In this document: positions 10,790-35,196 of the stretch, piece after piece
How positions within the stretch are numbered: the stretch's first letter is position 1
Layout of the letters: every line of letters begins with the position of its first letter
From: Bacteroidales bacterium
GTDB lineage: Bacteria > Bacteroidota > Bacteroidia > Bacteroidales > F082
DNA: 64,000 nt
Reading direction: 5' to 3'
Assembly: GCA_017466405.1 (NCBI GenBank)
Contig: JAFTUF010000009.1
Location: 62,001-126,000 of the forward strand
Position numbers and translations under genes: made by a program
Notes under the pieces: model-generated
Told to the model about the DNA's origin: nothing
Databases searched by the model: none
The model's input: only the letters and a program-made list of their open reading frames with translations

Positions 10790-11593
10790 ATGTATAACTT
10801 ATTAAGATTCTTAAAAAGATACAGTTACATATTGATGTTTTTGATATTGGAAGCTTTGTGTATCATATTGTTGGTAAACAATCTTCCATATCAAAAACGT
10901 AAGCTTGCAAGCGCAGGCAACGCCATAGCAGGAAAATTCTTCAAAACAAAATTTAACTTCACGAACTATTTCTCACTTAAAGAAGAAAATCAATTGTTGA
11001 TCGAACATAATGCTCTTCTTATGGGTATGTTAAATAATAATATCGACACAATAATTGACTCTGACTCATGTTATTCTAACTATAGGTATGTTCCGGCAAA
11101 TGTTATTAACAACAGCATTTATAATGTTAATAACTATTTGCTTATCGATAAAGGCAGCAAGGACGGAATAAAAAAAGATATGGGAGTTATTTGTGAAAAT
11201 GGAATAGTGGGAAAAGTAGCCAATGTAAGTAAGAATTATTCTTCCGTGATAAGTTTGTTACATCCTTATTCTGTCATCAGCGCTAGATTTGCTGACAACC
11301 AACATCTTGCAAATGTCTGCTGGGAAAACAAAGACTACCGCTATGGAACAGTGAAAGATATTCCTCTTCATCTTAATCCTCAAAAAGGAGATACTCTCGT
11401 AACAAGCGGTTTCTCAAATGTATATCCTGCAGATATTATGATTGGCACTATAGAAGAAATGCTCGATAATCAATCAAAAGATTTTAATACTGCCAAGATT
11501 AAATTCTCGACAAACTTCAGTACCTTACGTCACGTTTACGTGATAGATAATTTATATCAAACAGAAATTGACTCTCTAATATCAAATAAGTAA
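10790..11593 (+). CDS. mreC: rod shape-determining protein MreC
   Basis: 267 residues. One N-terminal transmembrane helix (about 10-30) is followed by a short coiled coil (KEENQLLIEHNALLMGML) and the two beta-barrel periplasmic domain of MreC. Recognisable motifs are LLIDKGSKDGIKKDMGVI, the characteristic GIVGKV step and GDTLVTSGFSNVYPADIMIG. MreC links cytoplasmic MreB with the periplasmic wall synthases. It lies 16 bp after mreB. Confidence 0.95.
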   Translation: MYNLLRFLKRYSYILMFLILEALCIILLVNNLPYQKRKLASAGNAIAGKFFKTKFNFTNYFSLKEENQLLIEHNALLMGMLNNNIDTIIDSDSCYSNYRYVPANVINNSIYNVNNYLLIDKGSKDGIKKDMGVICENGIVGKVANVSKNYSSVISLLHPYSVISARFADNQHLANVCWENKDYRYGTVKDIPLHLNPQKGDTLVTSGFSNVYPADIMIGTIEEMLDNQSKDFNTAKIKFSTNFSTLRHVYVIDNLYQTEIDSLISNK

Positions 11594-26559: not shown

Positions 26560-27273
26560 CTAAAGCCCTTTCACCTTTGGTATTCCCGGAACAAAGTCTT
26601 TGAGATAGAAAGGCTCGAAGTATGCGGTATCGACGAAGTCTTTTTCCTTCAATGACTTGTCGGCTAGTGTCGCCATATATGCTGCTGAGCAGTGGAACTT
26701 TTCTATAACAGTGATGTTCTCATCGTTCTCAAAAAGAGAAAGAAGTTTGTCGGCACCATCGCCAAAGAGATAAAGATGATGTTTTTGCTTTAGCTCCATA
26801 AATGAGTTTTCATCAATGATGAGAGCTTCTGTCTCTGTCGTTCTTTCCAAATTCTCATTAAAAAAAGCAGAATAAACCTCCATCCTCCTCGCATCAATCA
26901 TAGGACATAAGATATTTGACTCAGACACTGACTTTTGACTTTCGACTTTCGACTTTTGACTTTCAACGAAACCACATGCCATAGCTGCTAATGTATCAAT
27001 CGCGATGAGTGGTTTCTCCATAGCGTAGCAAAGACCTTTAGCGGTGCTGACACCGATACGCAGTCCTGTATAAGAACCCGGACCTTTGCTCACAGCGACA
27101 GCGTCTAAGTCACGGTACGAAACGTTGGCTTCTTTCATCACCTCGTCGATGAAAATAGTTATCTTCTCAGCATGATTCTGTCCATCAAGACTTTCTTTTA
27201 AAGCAACAACATTGCCTTCTTTAACAAGTGCTACCGAACATACAGCGGTAGAGGTTTCCAAACAAAGTATCAT
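26560..27273 (-). CDS. tsaB: tRNA N6-threonylcarbamoyladenosine biosynthesis protein TsaB
   Basis: 237 residues from the ATG at 27271-27273 (MILCLETSTAVCSVAL). A longer reading would extend through the promoter element. TsaB is the non-catalytic partner of TsaD in making t6A37 on ANN-decoding tRNAs. The ASKHA signature is clear: LETST, GPGSYTGLRIGVSTAKGL and IDARRMEVY. Residues ~103-120 (VESQKSKVESQKSVSESN) are an odd low-complexity insertion encoded by a 7-bp tandem repeat (26930-26964), in a loop between conserved segments. Divergent from nagB. Confidence 0.93.
   Translation of the reverse strand: MILCLETSTAVCSVALVKEGNVVALKESLDGQNHAEKITIFIDEVMKEANVSYRDLDAVAVSKGPGSYTGLRIGVSTAKGLCYAMEKPLIAIDTLAAMACGFVESQKSKVESQKSVSESNILCPMIDARRMEVYSAFFNENLERTTETEALIIDENSFMELKQKHHLYLFGDGADKLLSLFENDENITVIEKFHCSAAYMATLADKSLKEKDFVDTAYFEPFYLKDFVPGIPKVKGL
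26930..26964. repeat. 7-bp tandem repeat inside tsaB, five units
   Basis: Units GACTTTT/GACTTTC in perfect register on the + strand. The reading frame stays open through it. Confidence 0.9.
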
Positions 27274-28177: not shown

Positions 28178-28708
28178 ATGTCAACAGACAACACACATAG
28201 GGGCGTATCGCATACGCCCAATGTTTTTATTCACGAATCATCATACATCGATGACAATGTGACCATTGGCGAAGGCACAAAGATTTGGCATTTCTGTCAC
28301 ATACAGTCGGGTGCTGTAATCGGTAGGAATTGTTCTTTTGGTCAGAACGTCAATGTTGGTAACAACGTCAAGATTGGCGACGGCGTCAAGGTTCAGAATA
28401 ATGTGTCGATATATGAAGGCGTGGAGTTGGAAAACGATGTGTTCTGCGGACCGAGTTGTGTGTTTACCAATGTCACCATTCCGCGAGCAAAATATCCCGT
28501 GCATGGCGTTTATAAGAAGACATTAGTGAAAGAAGGAGCGTCTCTTGGCGCTAACTGTACCATTGTCTGTGGTGTCACCATAGGAAGATTTGCCATGATA
28601 GCAGCAGGAGCTGTCGTGACTAAAGACGTCCCCGACAACGCTCTTATGGCAGGAGTCCCGGCGCGACAGATTGGCTGGGTTGATGAAAAAGGAAATAAAT
28701 TGAAATAA
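28178..28708 (+). CDS. WbpD/WlbB-like UDP-amino-sugar N-acetyltransferase
   Basis: 176 residues, left-handed beta-helix of hexapeptide repeats ([42 protein letters not shown]) with the [21 protein letters not shown] region of the WbpD group. That group acetylates the 3-amino group of UDP-GlcNAc3NA on the way to di-N-acetylated mannuronic acid in O-antigens. WbpB-like and ugd genes lie nearby. The first ~15 residues ([15 protein letters not shown]) are unusual: they are encoded by a heptad repeat word followed by a REP-like palindrome (28201-28219). The normal family N-terminus starts at about [10 protein letters not shown]. Confidence 0.85.
28201..28219. repeat. REP-like palindrome with CGC loop inside a coding N-terminus
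   Basis: Perfect 8-bp stem GGGCGTAT / ATACGCCC around the loop CGC. It encodes RGVSHTP in the acetyltransferase. Confidence 0.8.
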
Positions 28709-28770: not shown

Positions 28771-28778
28771 TATCTTTG
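28771..28778 (+). promoter_or_regulatory. -7 promoter element for the DUF4143-type ATPase gene
   Basis: TATCTTTG matches TAnnTTTG, 12 bp before the ATG at 28791. A TTG inside it is not the start. Confidence 0.6.
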
Positions 28779-28790
28779 CAAAAAACATAT

Positions 28791-30101
28791 ATGATAAGAA
28801 AAGATGTCATAAAAACATTAATTGCAATCAAACAGAATGAGATACCGTTCGATGTATTTGATAGGGAAGAGAAGTTGCCTATTGATAGTCGAAAAATTGT
28901 TACTATTTCTGGTGTGCGACGTTGTGGAAAATCTACGATGATGGAGATAATCATTAATGATTTGGTTAAAAATGGAGTTAGTGCAGAGAGAATATTGTGG
29001 TTAGGTTTTGATGATGAGCGTCTTGTCGATATGCATTCTGATGAGTTGAATCAGGTAGTGGAGTCGTATATGGAGATGTATCCTGATATTCCGCTAAAGG
29101 ATGTTTATATGTTTTTTGATGAGATTCAACTTATAAAGGATTGGGAGTTTTTCGTTTTAAGACTATATAAGAATTATTGTAAGAATATCTACATCTGTGG
29201 AAGTAACGCAACAATGTTATCAACAGAGTTGAATTCTTCTCTGAGAGGCTATCCTATTGAATATAGAGCCTATACTTTATCATTTCGTGAGTATTGCCGG
29301 TTTAATGACATAAAGGTGCAATCATATCTTGAACAGGATATAGCACGTTTAAAAAATACTTTCCTTAAATATAACAGTGAAAGTTCATTCCCTGAGATAG
29401 TTCTTACAAGGTCAAAATCAGAACAGCTTAAATTGCTTCATGGTTATTTTGACACAATGCTGTTAAAAGATATAGCCGAACATTATAGAATTTCTAATGT
29501 AAGTATATTGAGGTATTTCGTTAAGAGAATAATGGAAAACCTTAGCAAACCGACTTCAATAAATAGTCTGTATAACGATATAAAGTCCCAAGGTATAAAG
29601 ATCTCAAAAGATGATTTATATCAATGGGCAAACTATGTTTGCAATATATTTCTTTTTATAAGAATTCCAAAGTATGACCGTTCTTTGTCGAAGGAGCAGA
29701 AATCATTGAATAAGTATTACTGTATCGATAATGGACTGCGTTCTGCTGTTTTGTTGCCTCAAAGTAATGATGAAGGAAAATATTTAGAAAATAATGTTTT
29801 TCTTCATCTTAACAGAAATATGCAGGTCGGAGATAAAATTACATATTTCCAGGGCAATAATGAATGTGATTTCGTGATTCAAAGAATGGATGTGGTTATA
29901 CAATTGATACAGGTGTGTTGGGATATATCAGAACATGACACCCTAAAAAGGGAGGTAAAAGGATTGTTAGAAGCTTCTAAAGTAACTAATTGTGATAATC
30001 TCTGGATTATAAATAAAGAAGAAGAAAAAACTATCATCATAGAAGAAAAGACAATTAATGTTGTTCCTGCTTGGAAATGGATGATACTAGTTGAAAACTG
30101 A
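28791..30101 (+). CDS. AAA-family ATPase with DUF4143 C-terminal domain
   Basis: 436 residues. Walker A GVRRCGKST is at 41-49 and Walker B YMFFDE at about 106-111. The C-terminal half has the DUF4143 pattern: YCIDNGLR, a nuclease-like strand NNECDFVIQR, then VIQLIQVCWDI. These proteins are common, highly variable and often strain-specific in Bacteroidota and archaea; the function is not established. The gene interrupts the amino-sugar nucleotide genes, has its own promoter with a tandem dyad, and is followed by heptad repeat sequence. All of this suggests a late insertion. Confidence 0.85.
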   Translation: MIRKDVIKTLIAIKQNEIPFDVFDREEKLPIDSRKIVTISGVRRCGKSTMMEIIINDLVKNGVSAERILWLGFDDERLVDMHSDELNQVVESYMEMYPDIPLKDVYMFFDEIQLIKDWEFFVLRLYKNYCKNIYICGSNATMLSTELNSSLRGYPIEYRAYTLSFREYCRFNDIKVQSYLEQDIARLKNTFLKYNSESSFPEIVLTRSKSEQLKLLHGYFDTMLLKDIAEHYRISNVSILRYFVKRIMENLSKPTSINSLYNDIKSQGIKISKDDLYQWANYVCNIFLFIRIPKYDRSLSKEQKSLNKYYCIDNGLRSAVLLPQSNDEGKYLENNVFLHLNRNMQVGDKITYFQGNNECDFVIQRMDVVIQLIQVCWDISEHDTLKREVKGLLEASKVTNCDNLWIINKEEEKTIIIEEKTINVVPAWKWMILVEN

Positions 30102-30150
30102 AAGTTGAAAATTAATTAGCTGTGAATTATGAGCCGTGAGCATATATTTG

Positions 30151-30178
30151 TTCAAAGTTCAAAGTTCAGAGTTCAAAG
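30151..30178. repeat. 7-bp tandem repeat, four units, before the WbpB-like gene
   Basis: TTCAAAG, TTCAAAG, TTCAGAG, TTCAAAG in register. Preceding sequence (30090-30145) is also word-like (CTGAAAACTGAAAGTTGAAA; ATGAGCCGTGAGC). Confidence 0.85.
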
Positions 30179-30187
30179 TATAAAAAA

Positions 30188-31153
30188 ATGAATTTCTCAA
30201 TAATAGGAGTTGGCGGCTATATCGCGCCACGACATCTTAAAGCAATAAAAGACACTGGCAATATCTTGGTCTCGGCTTACGATAAAAACGACAGTGTCGG
30301 GATAATGGACAGCTATTTCCCTCATGCTTCGTTTTTCACCGAACAGGAACTCTTCGACCGTCATAACACTCGTCTCATCGAGAAAGGTCAGAAGATTGAT
30401 TTCGTGTCGGTTTGTACGCCTAACTATCTCCACGACGCTCACACTAGATACGGATTGAGATTAGGCTGCGATGTTATCTGCGAGAAACCTGTTGTCTTGA
30501 ATCCATGGAATATCGACGCTTTAGAAGCTGTAGAGAAATCGACGGGAAGAAAAGCTTATACTATTTTACAGCTGCGTCTTCACGAGTCGATAGTTGCGTT
30601 GAAGAAGAAGATAGATGAAGGTCCTAAAGATAAGATTTACGATGTCGATTTGACTTATATTACTGCAAGAGGTAATTGGTATTATACTTCGTGGAAAGGC
30701 GACATCAATAAGAGCGGTGGCGTCGCAACTAACATAGGAATTCATTTCTATGATATGCTGCAATGGATTTTCGGCGATGTGAAGAAAAGCGTCGTTCATG
30801 TCTCGAGCCATGACAGAGTTGCTGGTTATTTAGAGTTGGAGAAGGCGAGAGTGAGATATTTCTTAAGTATCAACGCCGACACTCTTCCTGAGAATGCTGT
30901 CCAAGGTGAGAAGAGAACATACAGAACCATCATGATTGACGGCAGCGAATTTGAATTCAGTCAAGGATTTACAGAACTTCATACCGAGAGTTACAAAAAG
31001 ATATTATCTGGCGAAGGATTCAGAATCTCAGAAGCGAGAAACTGCATCGAGATGGTCTATGAGATAAGAAACGCCGCCCCAATAGGACTCAAAGGCGACT
31101 ACCATCCATTGGCGAGATTAGAGTTAAGCAAGCATCCGTTTGGATGGAAGTAG
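30188..31153 (+). CDS. WbpB-like Gfo/Idh/MocA oxidoreductase (UDP-GlcNAcA 3-dehydrogenase type)
   Basis: 321 residues. An N-terminal Rossmann fold (GVGGYIAPRHLKAI), CTPNYLHDAHTRYGLRLGCDVICEKP with the catalytic Lys, and GGVATNIGIHFYDMLQWIFG with the His/Asp pair are all typical of WbpB/WlbA. Those enzymes oxidise C3 of UDP-GlcNAc uronic acid before amination by WbpE and acetylation by WbpD. The WbpD-like gene is upstream (separated by the ATPase) and ugd is downstream. No WbpE-type aminotransferase is in the window. The stop codon lies within a palindrome (31147-31173). Confidence 0.88.
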   Translation: MNFSIIGVGGYIAPRHLKAIKDTGNILVSAYDKNDSVGIMDSYFPHASFFTEQELFDRHNTRLIEKGQKIDFVSVCTPNYLHDAHTRYGLRLGCDVICEKPVVLNPWNIDALEAVEKSTGRKAYTILQLRLHESIVALKKKIDEGPKDKIYDVDLTYITARGNWYYTSWKGDINKSGGVATNIGIHFYDMLQWIFGDVKKSVVHVSSHDRVAGYLELEKARVRYFLSINADTLPENAVQGEKRTYRTIMIDGSEFEFSQGFTELHTESYKKILSGEGFRISEARNCIEMVYEIRNAAPIGLKGDYHPLARLELSKHPFGWK

Positions 31154-31173
31154 CAGTCCGCGACTGCTACTTC
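31147..31173. repeat. REP-like palindrome with CGC loop at the WbpB-like stop codon
   Basis: Perfect 12-bp stem GAAGTAGCAGTC / GACTGCTACTTC with loop CGC, ending one base before the left inverted repeat of the four-helix-bundle locus. No T run follows, so it is a weak terminator candidate. Confidence 0.85.
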
Positions 31174-31174
31174 T

Positions 31175-31205
31175 GTCAACAGACAACAGACAACGGACAA
31201 CAGTC
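31175..31205. repeat. left 31-bp inverted repeat framing the four-helix-bundle gene
   Basis: Built of 7-bp units (AGACAAC, AGACAAC, GGACAAC) between GTCAAC and AGTC. Its complement recurs at 31642-31672, 29 of 31 positions identical. Confidence 0.9.
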
Positions 31206-31256
31206 TTTGTCCATGAGTTTTAATAAATAATTTATGAACTTTTAACCAAATTAATT

Positions 31257-31619
31257 ATGAAAGTAAGAAACCTTGAAAATTTAAGAGTGTGGCAGGAGAC
31301 AAGGTCTTTTGTCAATGAAATTTATGAATTGATGTCTAACTGTAAAGATTATAGTTTTCGTGATCAGTTGCAGAGAGCGTCTATATCAATAATGAATAAC
31401 ATAGCGGAAGGCTCAGAAAGTGGATCTGACAAAGCGTATATTCGTTATTTGAATGTGTCGAGAGGAAGTTGTTCTGAAGTTAAAAGTATGTTGTATCTTT
31501 GTGAAGATATGAAATTCTGCACTCCAGAGAAACGTAAGGAATTACAATCAAAGTTGTTGATAATATCAGGTCAAATATATAAATTAATAGAGTTTTTAAA
31601 TAACAATCAGAAGAACTGA
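31257..31619 (+). CDS. four-helix-bundle protein (S23 / IVP / Avd-related family)
   Basis: 120 residues, all helical. It has the family opening VRNLENLRVWQETRSFVNEIYEL and core FRDQLQRASISIMNNIAEGSESGSDKAYIRYLNVSRGSCSEVKSMLYL. Relatives are encoded in intervening sequences of 23S rRNA genes in some bacteria, and the fold is shared with Avd of diversity-generating retroelements. No enzyme activity is known. The gene sits exactly between two 31-bp inverted repeats, within UDP-sugar genes to which it has no evident link. No TAnnTTTG promoter was found for it. Confidence 0.88.
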   Translation: MKVRNLENLRVWQETRSFVNEIYELMSNCKDYSFRDQLQRASISIMNNIAEGSESGSDKAYIRYLNVSRGSCSEVKSMLYLCEDMKFCTPEKRKELQSKLLIISGQIYKLIEFLNNNQKN

Positions 31620-31641
31620 CGATAGAGAAAGCATACCTAAG

Positions 31642-31672
31642 GACTGTTGTCTGTTGTCCGTTGTCTGTTGAC
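31642..31672. repeat. right 31-bp inverted repeat framing the four-helix-bundle gene
   Basis: Reverse complement of 31175-31205 with two mismatches. Units TGTTGTC, TGTTGTC, CGTTGTC, TGTTGAC. The same unit word recurs at 35156-35183. Confidence 0.9.
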
Positions 31673-31682
31673 TTAATAAATT

Positions 31683-32921
31683 ATGAAAATCTCAATAGCA
31701 GGAACCGGTTACGTCGGATTATCAATCGCGACATTATTAGCGCAGCACAATGAAGTGACGGCTGTTGACATTGTGCCGGAGCGCGTGGAGATGATTAACA
31801 ATAAGAAGTCTCCTATACAAGATGATTACATTGAAGATTATCTTGTCAATAAGGATTTGAATCTCCGCGCCACTATAGACGCTGAGTCGGGATATAAAGA
31901 CGCAGAATTTGTGGTAATCGCGGCGCCTACCAACTACGATAGCGTGAGAAATTTCTTCGATACTTCGGCTGTGGAAGATGTCATCTCTAAGGTGATGAAA
32001 TATAATCCAGATGCTATCATGGTGATAAAAAGTACTATTCCTGTCGGTTATACTGAAGCGATAAGAAAGAAAACCGGCAGCGATAATATAATATTCTCTC
32101 CTGAGTTTCTGAGAGAGAGTAAGGCATTATACGATAATCTATATCCGAGCAGAATAATAGTCGGTTATAAGCAAAATGACGAGCGTTTGGAGAAGGCTGC
32201 TCATCAGTTTGCTGAGCTTATAAAGCAAGGCGCTATCAAGCAGGATGTGCCAGTTCTCTTTATGGGAAGCACTGAGGCTGAGGCGGTGAAACTCTTTGCC
32301 AACACTTATCTCGCTCTTCGTGTCAGTTATTTCAACGAACTCGATACCTATTCAGAACTGAAAGGATTGAACACTCAGCAAATAATAGAAGGCGTTTGCC
32401 TCGATCCTCGCATCGGAACTCATTACAACAACCCAAGTTTCGGCTATGGTGGTTATTGTCTCCCGAAAGACACCAAACAGCTTCTCGCAAATTATGAAGA
32501 CGTGCCTCAGAACATGATGTCGGCTATTGTGGAAAGCAACAGAACTCGTAAGGATTTCATCGCTGACCAGGTGTTGAAAAAAGCTGGCTATTACGATTAC
32601 TACAACTATAGTCATTATAATGCTCAAGCTGAGAAACAATGTGTTATCGGAGTCTATCGTCTCACTATGAAATCCAACTCGGATAACTTCCGTCAGAGTT
32701 CGATACAAGGTGTGATGAAGCGAGTGAAGGCAAAAGGCGCTACCGTCATTATCTACGAACCTTCTTTAGAAGATGGCAGCACTTTCTTTGGCAGCATTGT
32801 CGTCAACGACTTGGAACGATTCAAGAAAGAAAGTCATGCTATCATTGCCAATCGTTACGATAGCAGTTTAGATGACGTTAAGGAAAAGGTTTATACGCGA
32901 GATATTTTCAGACGCGACTGA
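31683..32921 (+). CDS. ugd: UDP-glucose 6-dehydrogenase
   Basis: 412 residues, of the single-domain-swapped type seen in E. coli Ugd. It oxidises UDP-glucose to UDP-glucuronate in two NAD-dependent steps. Visible motifs are [60 protein letters not shown], and [10 protein letters not shown] with the catalytic Cys. An extra tyrosine-rich stretch of about 16 residues ([14 protein letters not shown]) sits before [21 protein letters not shown]-GlcNAc dehydrogenase role would fit the WbpB/D neighbours better, but the sequence matches Ugd. Confidence 0.92.
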
Positions 32922-34324: not shown

Positions 34325-35196
34325 GAACTTATCTTATTATATTTTTTTGAGACATTGAAAGGAAATTTTAGCTTCTCCCCTACTTTAATTTCTGTATAAT
34401 TAATCTCTATAATACCATCTAACGAAGAGTCTTCAAAGATTATTTTCGATGGAATTAATTTGTCGTTAATTTGCTGAAAATCGTCATAGCGGAGACTCGA
34501 TTTTATACAACGGATAATATTTTTATCTTTACCTTCTCTAATGAAGCGAGTTGTTATCTCATATTTGTTTATCCTAAAGCTTTCAGGTGTGATGTAAATA
34601 TTTTTGGTGATAAATTCTTCTTCTCCTATTTTTGATATATGTTTAGGTTTAGTTTCAAGCTTGTAACTGTCGTTTTCTATCTCAACTTGATATTTATTGT
34701 CTCTGATATGAACGTCGTTTCCTACCAACAAGCCTTGTACAAACAACAATGGATTTTTAATTATTGAGTCGAGGCTTTCGATATTTGTCACGAAATATGT
34801 TTTCTTTGTCCTATTGATGAATTTTAAGGAATCTTTTGTTATCATAACTCTTGCCATTTCAACGCCGAGTTTCAACGATAAAGAAACCCATATCACGCTG
34901 TCGTTCTGCATCCTCAGCTGTCCTTTCAATCCCATCGGATTAATACCTTTGGTATCCTTAATCTTAACATCAAACTTAGCTTCAAAATTGTCAAACTCGA
35001 ACTTATTATCTTCAACTTCATTTACAATGTGATTGGCAGATAACATCCTGACATTCGATGTTTCTTTTTTTACTGAACAAGAACTGACGATTAGAATAAG
35101 AGCCAAGAACCATGAACTAAGAGCTAAGAACCTCCGACAGCTCGTGGATAATGACCGTTGTCTGTTGACTGTTGTCTGTTGACTTTTCTTATTCAT
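34318..35196 (-). CDS. DUF4292 lipoprotein
   Basis: 292 residues from the ATG at 35194-35196, which overlaps the TAA of the TPR gene. Lipobox IVSSC is at about residue 40, then a beta-rich LolA/LolB-like domain: FEAKFDVKIKD, GLKGQLRMQNDSVIWVSLSLKLGVEMARVMITKDSLKFINR. This is the DUF4292 family of Bacteroidota, probably an envelope lipoprotein in lipid or lipoprotein handling; that role is inference from fold. The signal region is abnormally long because two repeat tracts (35098-35131 and 35156-35183) are read as SQQTTVNRQR and RRFLALSSWFLAL. Confidence 0.85.
   Translation of the reverse strand: MNKKSQQTTVNRQRSLSTSCRRFLALSSWFLALILIVSSCSVKKETSNVRMLSANHIVNEVEDNKFEFDNFEAKFDVKIKDTKGINPMGLKGQLRMQNDSVIWVSLSLKLGVEMARVMITKDSLKFINRTKKTYFVTNIESLDSIIKNPLLFVQGLLVGNDVHIRDNKYQVEIENDSYKLETKPKHISKIGEEEFITKNIYITPESFRINKYEITTRFIREGKDKNIIRCIKSSLRYDDFQQINDKLIPSKIIFEDSSLDGIIEINYTEIKVGEKLKFPFNVSKKYNKISSW
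35098..35131. repeat. degenerate word repeat in the DUF4292 signal region
   Basis: AGAGCCAAGAACCATGAACT then AAGAGCTAAGAACC: the words GAGC(C/T)AAGAAC recur with a spacer. Encodes hydrophobic residues of the signal peptide. Confidence 0.7.
35156..35183. repeat. 7-bp tandem repeat, four units, same word as the 31-bp inverted repeats
   Basis: CGTTGTC, TGTTGAC, TGTTGTC, TGTTGAC in register on the + strand, inside the DUF4292 coding sequence. Confidence 0.9.

Follow-up and report, generated by a model that had tools for sequence, protein, structure and literature searches.

A candidate small mobile element of the S23/IVP intervening-sequence type between two protein genes of a Bacteroidales genome

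What kind of unit is a lone four-helix-bundle gene that stands between two protein genes, gfo and ugd, and is framed by inverted arrays of a short word? A preliminary description of this locus, which lies in a window of 64,000 nucleotides (the whole stretch of Bacteroidales DNA analysed here), had proposed a block that moves or is processed as one piece, possibly of retro type and possibly resembling a RAYT/REPIN system. Our analysis favours a small mobile element of the same type as S23/IVP intervening sequences, located between two protein genes rather than within an rRNA gene, a reading to which we assign a probability of roughly 0.6.

The unit comprises 529 bp of the + strand (31154–31682), from just after the gfo stop codon, which ends at 31153, to just before the ugd ATG at 31683. 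Its left arm (31175–31208, +) is built of 7-bp units CAACRGA and its right arm (31639–31672, +) of 7-bp units GTTGTCY. The two arms are 34-nt inverted copies with 31/34 positions paired (91% complementary), confirming and slightly extending the inverted repeats first given as 31 nt with 29/31 matches. The sole ORF between them (31257–31619, +; 120 aa) had been assigned to the S23/IVP four-helix-bundle family, and a profile search bore this out, with matches above both family cut-offs: PF05635 (E 2.4e-30; 105.3 bits, cut-off 33.8) and TIGR02436 (E 2e-28; 98.8 bits, cut-off 24). Solved relatives of the protein, 2gsc and 2rld, have five chains each. The perfect 12-bp palindrome with a 3-nt loop that had been noted at the left edge of the unit is present at 31147–31173 (no strand assigned), where it adjoins the left arm and overlaps the final gfo codons with its left half; the close relative G011 retains it, with one pair altered on both sides.

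With at most one mismatch, the word TCAACAGACAAC occurs eight times in the window, at 28181, 31176, 31183, 31646, 31660, 35157, 35171, and 42197, compared to an expectation of 0.37, and 0 of 100 shuffles reached eight. Two solo copies of the word had been reported outside the unit; that at 35157–35184 (− strand) is a true array, at whose place the relative G022 has an altered array, whereas at 28181–28192 the word stands alone where an ORF begins. Other features were seen nearby. A period-7 array at 26929–26963 runs in frame within a tsaB-like ORF (SQKSKVESQKS), and relatives have 8-bp-type repeats at that place. Just upstream of gfo lies a GTTCAAA array (30150–30179), where several relatives have other 7- or 8-bp words. 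An AAA_14/DUF4143 gene (28776–30101) is found in the window's own genome (G000) and in G011; in the G022 locus, no more than its final 28 codons have a match.

When gfo was used as a DNA query, 84 of 99 genus genomes gave a match, and we read 30 of these loci (L127–L156). Among them, an S23 gene lies between gfo and ugd only in the own genome and G011. The S23 gene is absent from five relatives with 82–87% DNA identity in gfo (G022, G009, G033, G008, and G028), which are all the other loci read in which ugd directly follows gfo, and their gfo stop and ugd ATG are separated by 8–24 bp. This empty junction agrees with the earlier proposal of a block, and insertion of the window unit as one block, or its loss several times over, is well supported. 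Extra S23 genes beside gfo in other genus genomes indicate that this neighbourhood was entered more than once: they lie 110–160 bp upstream of gfo in G053, G070, G071, and G077, with a broken copy in G021 and a second gene just downstream of gfo in G071, all on the gfo strand. The window unit thus combines two properties of a DNA transposon, inverted ends and presence or absence at one junction. No target-site duplication was seen at the window junction, which is too diverged to show one, and no transposase was recognised in the unit, whose single ORF encodes a four-helix-bundle protein that belongs to no known class of enzymes. An ordinary operon gene with a regulatory or terminator stem would share the co-directionality with neighbours that the unit has in common with ordinary genes, but the presence and absence of the gene between close relatives, the alternation of mini and full forms at two sites, and the recurrence of one layout with different words in several phyla (both described below) make this explanation nearly negligible.

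PF05635 matches were found in 96/99 genus genomes and 193/247 same-phylum genomes searched. To each locus we gave an arm score by comparing its left flank with its own right flank, inverted; a score of 30 or more was taken as matched, and swapped flank pairs served as control. The genus sample combined 6 own-genome matches with the 30 top-ranked matches and another 60 that scored high (1 of 96 dropped for short flanks), the same-phylum sample of the best 30 PF05635 matches, and the named-genome sample of the best 80 of 581 confirmed loci, chosen by protein similarity alone (3 of 80 dropped for short flanks). Arms were matched in 85/95 S23 genes of the genus compared to 6.9% of 1127 swapped pairs, in 14/30 of the same phylum compared to 2.0% of 351, and in 44/77 of the named loci (from the best 80 of 581) compared to 1.9% of 1521. 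This contrast between own and swapped flanks excludes chance for the S23 family as a whole. As many loci represent one site in sister species, we also counted once per site group, which gave matched arms in 30/35 groups of the genus, 8/17 of the same phylum, and 29/47 of the named genomes (best 80 of 581). Tandem arrays lay within 250 bp on either side of 68/95 genus S23 genes and 18/120 control ORFs, and on both sides of 25/95 and 4/120, respectively. The arm-to-arm length had a median of 492 bp, with the middle half at 468–540 bp (64 site groups).

In the own genome, four PF05635 genes are strong matches, one is slightly above the cut-off, and one is below it. Three (L001, L002, and L003) have matched arms made of three different words, with units of 7, 7, and 8 bp and scores of 53, 54, and 58, respectively; L004 has weak 6-bp-type repeats (score 28), and L005 and L006 have no matched arms (scores 14 and 15). 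The matched named loci, among the best 80 of 581, come from several phyla, and their record titles include Flavobacterium, Clostridiaceae, Oscillospiraceae, Acidobacteriales, Desulfosarcina, Nitrospirae, SAR324, and Thiohalocapsa. The layout around other four-helix-bundle genes that the preliminary description had envisaged thus recurs in the genus and beyond, and the same layout with differing words in several phyla points, as far as sequence comparison can indicate, to a widespread, little-noticed mobile element. S23 genes lacking inverted repeats, named in that description as potential counter-evidence, were found in part: the arm score was below 30 in 10/95 genus, 16/30 same-phylum, and 33/77 named S23 loci (best 80 of 581). 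Against the mobile-element reading we count the low scores of L004, L005, and L006, the own-arm advantage in only some site groups, the solo arrays without strand bias and mostly without an inverted partner, and the array copies that do not always track the element (G012 and G066), all described here or below.

The repeat word (6–9 bp) varies from element to element, and both arms of one element agree. Within groups of orthologous insertions the word can change in both arms (for example, TCAGC vs TAAGC, or TTAGCCA vs TAGTCTT), and own arms were better than arms swapped within the same group in 94 elements vs 38; counted by site group, own arms were better in only 17/29 groups, and in 8/9 of those with at least five members. 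When different site groups were compared, arm similarity averaged 23.0 at a protein identity of at least 70% (80 pairs; 10.6 in reversed orientation) and was about 9 at identities below 45%, and none of 500 permutations gave a correlation as strong. This comparison used at most three elements per site group and treated sites as unrelated when no flank homology was detected in the stretches examined; at such sites, the arm word tracks the protein subfamily. Left arms are C-poor and AG-rich, with AG exceeding CT in 45/64 groups, the reverse in 11, and ties in 8. If, as we propose, the S23 protein reads both arms, then arms and protein would co-evolve, and we infer that the repeats are recognised by the element's own S23 protein.

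Matched arrays might instead precede the genes that they flank, with slippage and gene conversion making them between genes and S23 genes merely landing or surviving there. The own genome is rich in such arrays (a 304-kb sample held 82, of which 43 had period 7 and 25 had period 8, compared to 0 in Markov controls), arrays at one place switch their word between species, and most solo arrays are single. Yet matched inverted pairs accompany the S23 gene, the arm word follows the protein subfamily, and the gfo–ugd junction is uninterrupted and array-free in L129–L132, although the gap in L133 holds a short 7-bp array. We consider this order of events quite unlikely.

Gene-less forms with element-like ends occur at two sites ~1.25 kb apart, where G096 holds a full element at site 1, G092 holds one at site 2, and G005 carries an identical ~95-bp unit at both, in which a short AT-rich loop joins a heptad arm to the inverted arm. 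Site 2 of G096 contains the G005 mini unit with 95/95 bases the same, in surrounding DNA that is 84–93% identical between the two genomes, and site 1 of G092 contains an 86% copy. Such mini copies would arise from the mobile element by internal deletion and would use the same ends as the full form. Matches to the mini unit or its arms numbered 33 in G005, 24 in G096, 30 in G092, 19 in G059, and 0–3 in six other genomes. The link between word and element is not strict: G066 has an element with this word and only 2 matches, and G005 has no strong S23 gene. The left arm at site 1 of G005 and G096 (L291 and L090) has a palindrome, CGCTCAATGAGCG, immediately on its outer side, as the left arm at the window locus also has a palindrome.

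The window element's own word had 152 matches in G000 (overlapping ones counted separately) and was found in 12/99 genus genomes, largely the closest relatives of G000, a pattern that common descent alone could explain. TTAGCYA arrays were present in 57/99 genus genomes, with most matches in G012 (51), whose one element read has another word. In the 304-kb sample, 75 arrays lie away from S23 genes. For three of the four own elements, the word recurs in sample arrays elsewhere (16, 2, 10, and 0 of 75), compared to 6/61 other groups, the arms of L003 and L004 having been picked by hand for this comparison. An inverted partner lay within 200 bp of 3/61 sample arrays (swapped, 4.9%), and solo arrays had no strand bias in the own genome (33/54) or in relatives (16/27); being mostly single and without strand preference, they are not simply hairpin copies. 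Array copies with the element's word are confined to a few related genomes, in line with the suggestion that heptads elsewhere are traces of past events; the 75 arrays away from S23 genes speak against it in part.

In RAYT/REPIN systems a single gene goes with short inverted sequences that match one another, and dispersed copies are lineage-limited; the unit shares these traits. It differs from them in containing no Y1 transposase gene, in having arms of 6–9-bp tandem units rather than REP hairpins, and in that most solo copies are single, and the RAYT/REPIN-like system suggested at first was not upheld. A Y1 transposase acting in trans could still move the arrays and the palindrome. Copies limited to a lineage and mini hairpins are reminiscent of REPIN dynamics, and the genome has two Y1_Tnp matches (contigs C21 and C58, neither in the unit), one of which (L289) has two arrays upstream. 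Arrays are so common in G000 that two near L289 are unremarkable, however, both Y1_Tnp genes are flanked by other palindromic repeats, and the mostly single state of solo arrays likewise speaks against movement of this type, which we judge very improbable.

RNA folding predicts that the arms of the window unit pair into a long closing stem (z −8.1; none of 100 shuffles did as well). The pairing of the repeats in RNA proposed earlier thus stands as a prediction, but arm mismatches show no excess of G-U pairs (123 G-U vs 165 A-C, compared to 281 vs 312 for swapped arms; p 0.20), and selection for RNA pairing is not supported. S23 elements share the direction of both neighbours in 70 groups and run against both in 2; another 14 groups are convergent and 6 divergent. 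Once ordinary genes had been measured (190 co-directional vs 17 opposed), co-orientation was dropped as decisive evidence, as the sense orientation of the elements is not clearly above that level. Rfam searches gave no rRNA match in window positions 30900–31900 (two sub-threshold eukaryotic matches) or in 20 of the 80 named loci (one unrelated sRNA).

The closest known parallel is an S23 intervening sequence (IVS) of 23S rRNA, 428 nt long and excised by RNase III, which in the part of its report available to us has a 28-bp stem and tandem heptamers of variable copy number before the S23 ORF (PMC4990558). The elements described here resemble it in their S23/IVP ORF, their length (428 nt vs a median of 492 bp), a stem of about 30 bp formed from terminal inverted repeats, and tandem heptamers before the ORF. 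They differ in having repeat-array arms on both sides with an element-specific word, in their mini copies and dispersed arrays, and in that their excision from RNA is only proposed. The window unit has the terminal inverted repeats around an S23 ORF that mark an IVS, in the form of its arms and their predicted RNA stem, but it sits between gfo and ugd rather than within an rRNA gene, and we therefore do not class it as an IVS despite its IVS architecture. The same source describes S23/IVP proteins as without known function and a solved S23 protein as a ring-shaped homopentamer, and its authors conclude that the S23 protein of the 23S IVS is probably not made in vivo (PMC4990558), which counts against a role of the protein in that IVS.

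One could therefore picture an element that acts at the RNA level only, with arms that are complementary because RNase III needs an RNA stem and with no part for recognition in DNA. The predicted closing stem, the excision of the S23 IVS by RNase III, and the sense orientation in 70/72 tandem groups are in its favour. It is nevertheless unlikely, given that arm mismatches lack a G-U excess, that dispersed arrays with the same word are left unexplained, and that ordinary genes are nearly as co-directional. The lack of a G-U excess and a co-orientation close to that of ordinary genes lead us to rank DNA-level ends first, with RNA processing as a likely companion.

In the small mobile element that we favour, the S23 protein, of which a solved relative forms a ring-shaped homopentamer, would bind the repeat units at both ends, and the ends so marked would be used by host enzymes to move or copy the element. 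The element would be transcribed from the promoter of the upstream gene, and by analogy with the 23S IVS, RNase III may cut its RNA stem, so that the insertion stays tolerable. If S23/IVP proteins do belong to mobile units with matched array ends, their role becomes testable as recognition of their own word.

Elsewhere, the S23 family is mentioned for rRNA insertions of CPR bacteria in the accessible text of PMC11270868, and four-helix-bundle genes appear just in a table in that of PMC5524665. TAACTGA heptamer repeats of Beggiatoaceae, Cyanobacteria, and Bacteroidetes (PMC4679880) are likewise genome-wide, intergenic 7-bp direct repeats; they differ, as far as that source is available, in consisting of one fixed word in direct repeats, and its main text lacks the terms 'four helix', 'intervening', 'S23', and '23S'. 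In the literature searched, which left out preprints and most subscription journals, we found no description of repeat-flanked S23 genes outside rRNA.

A second protein has a parallel layout. A TIGR04256 (GxxExxY) gene enclosed by inverted nonads (9-bp units) occupies site 2 in G098 and G094, and among PF13366 loci of the genus, matched arms (score 30) were found in 23/28 (2 of 30 dropped for short flanks) compared to 16.1% of 756 swapped pairs, a contrast weaker than that for S23 because words are alike between GxxExxY loci. Four arrays of a 10-bp word, CACGAATCCA, at 11065–11303 of L276 are similar to the nonads beside GxxExxY genes. We tentatively suggest, at somewhat less than even odds, a wider class of mobile elements whose ends are arrays of 6–9-bp words rewritten in concert, each element having a specific word read by its own small protein. 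Its proteins would be of two or more unrelated kinds (S23/IVP, whose words mostly have 7 or 8 bp, and GxxExxY, whose words have 9 bp). The class would produce gene-less mini copies and seed lineage-limited arrays, and the classical S23 IVSs of 23S rRNA would be the subset that landed in rRNA. If so, part of the unexplained 7- to 9-bp arrays in bacterial genomes would have a source, and rRNA intervening sequences would be one landing site of this class.

The S23/IVP four-helix bundle has a fold in common with Avd of diversity-generating retroelements. In the own genome, L006, an Avd-like gene, matches PF05635 weakly, below the cut-off, and adjoins the genome's only PF00078 match, on contig C59; L006 and this reverse transcriptase gene (L287) probably form a diversity-generating retroelement. 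The window unit differs from such elements in lacking a reverse transcriptase, and L006 differs from the window gene in lacking matched arms (score 15). As the sole PF00078 match lies beside the Avd-like gene and not in the unit, the retro-type interpretation offered earlier is not supported. The two Y1 transposase genes (L288 on C21 and L289 on C58) lie beside palindromic repeats that are gcgctgtaggcgcg-like, with which they probably constitute a separate RAYT/REP system; of the two arrays near L289, one has 7-bp and the other 8-bp units, and both lie no more than about 600 bp upstream of the gene.
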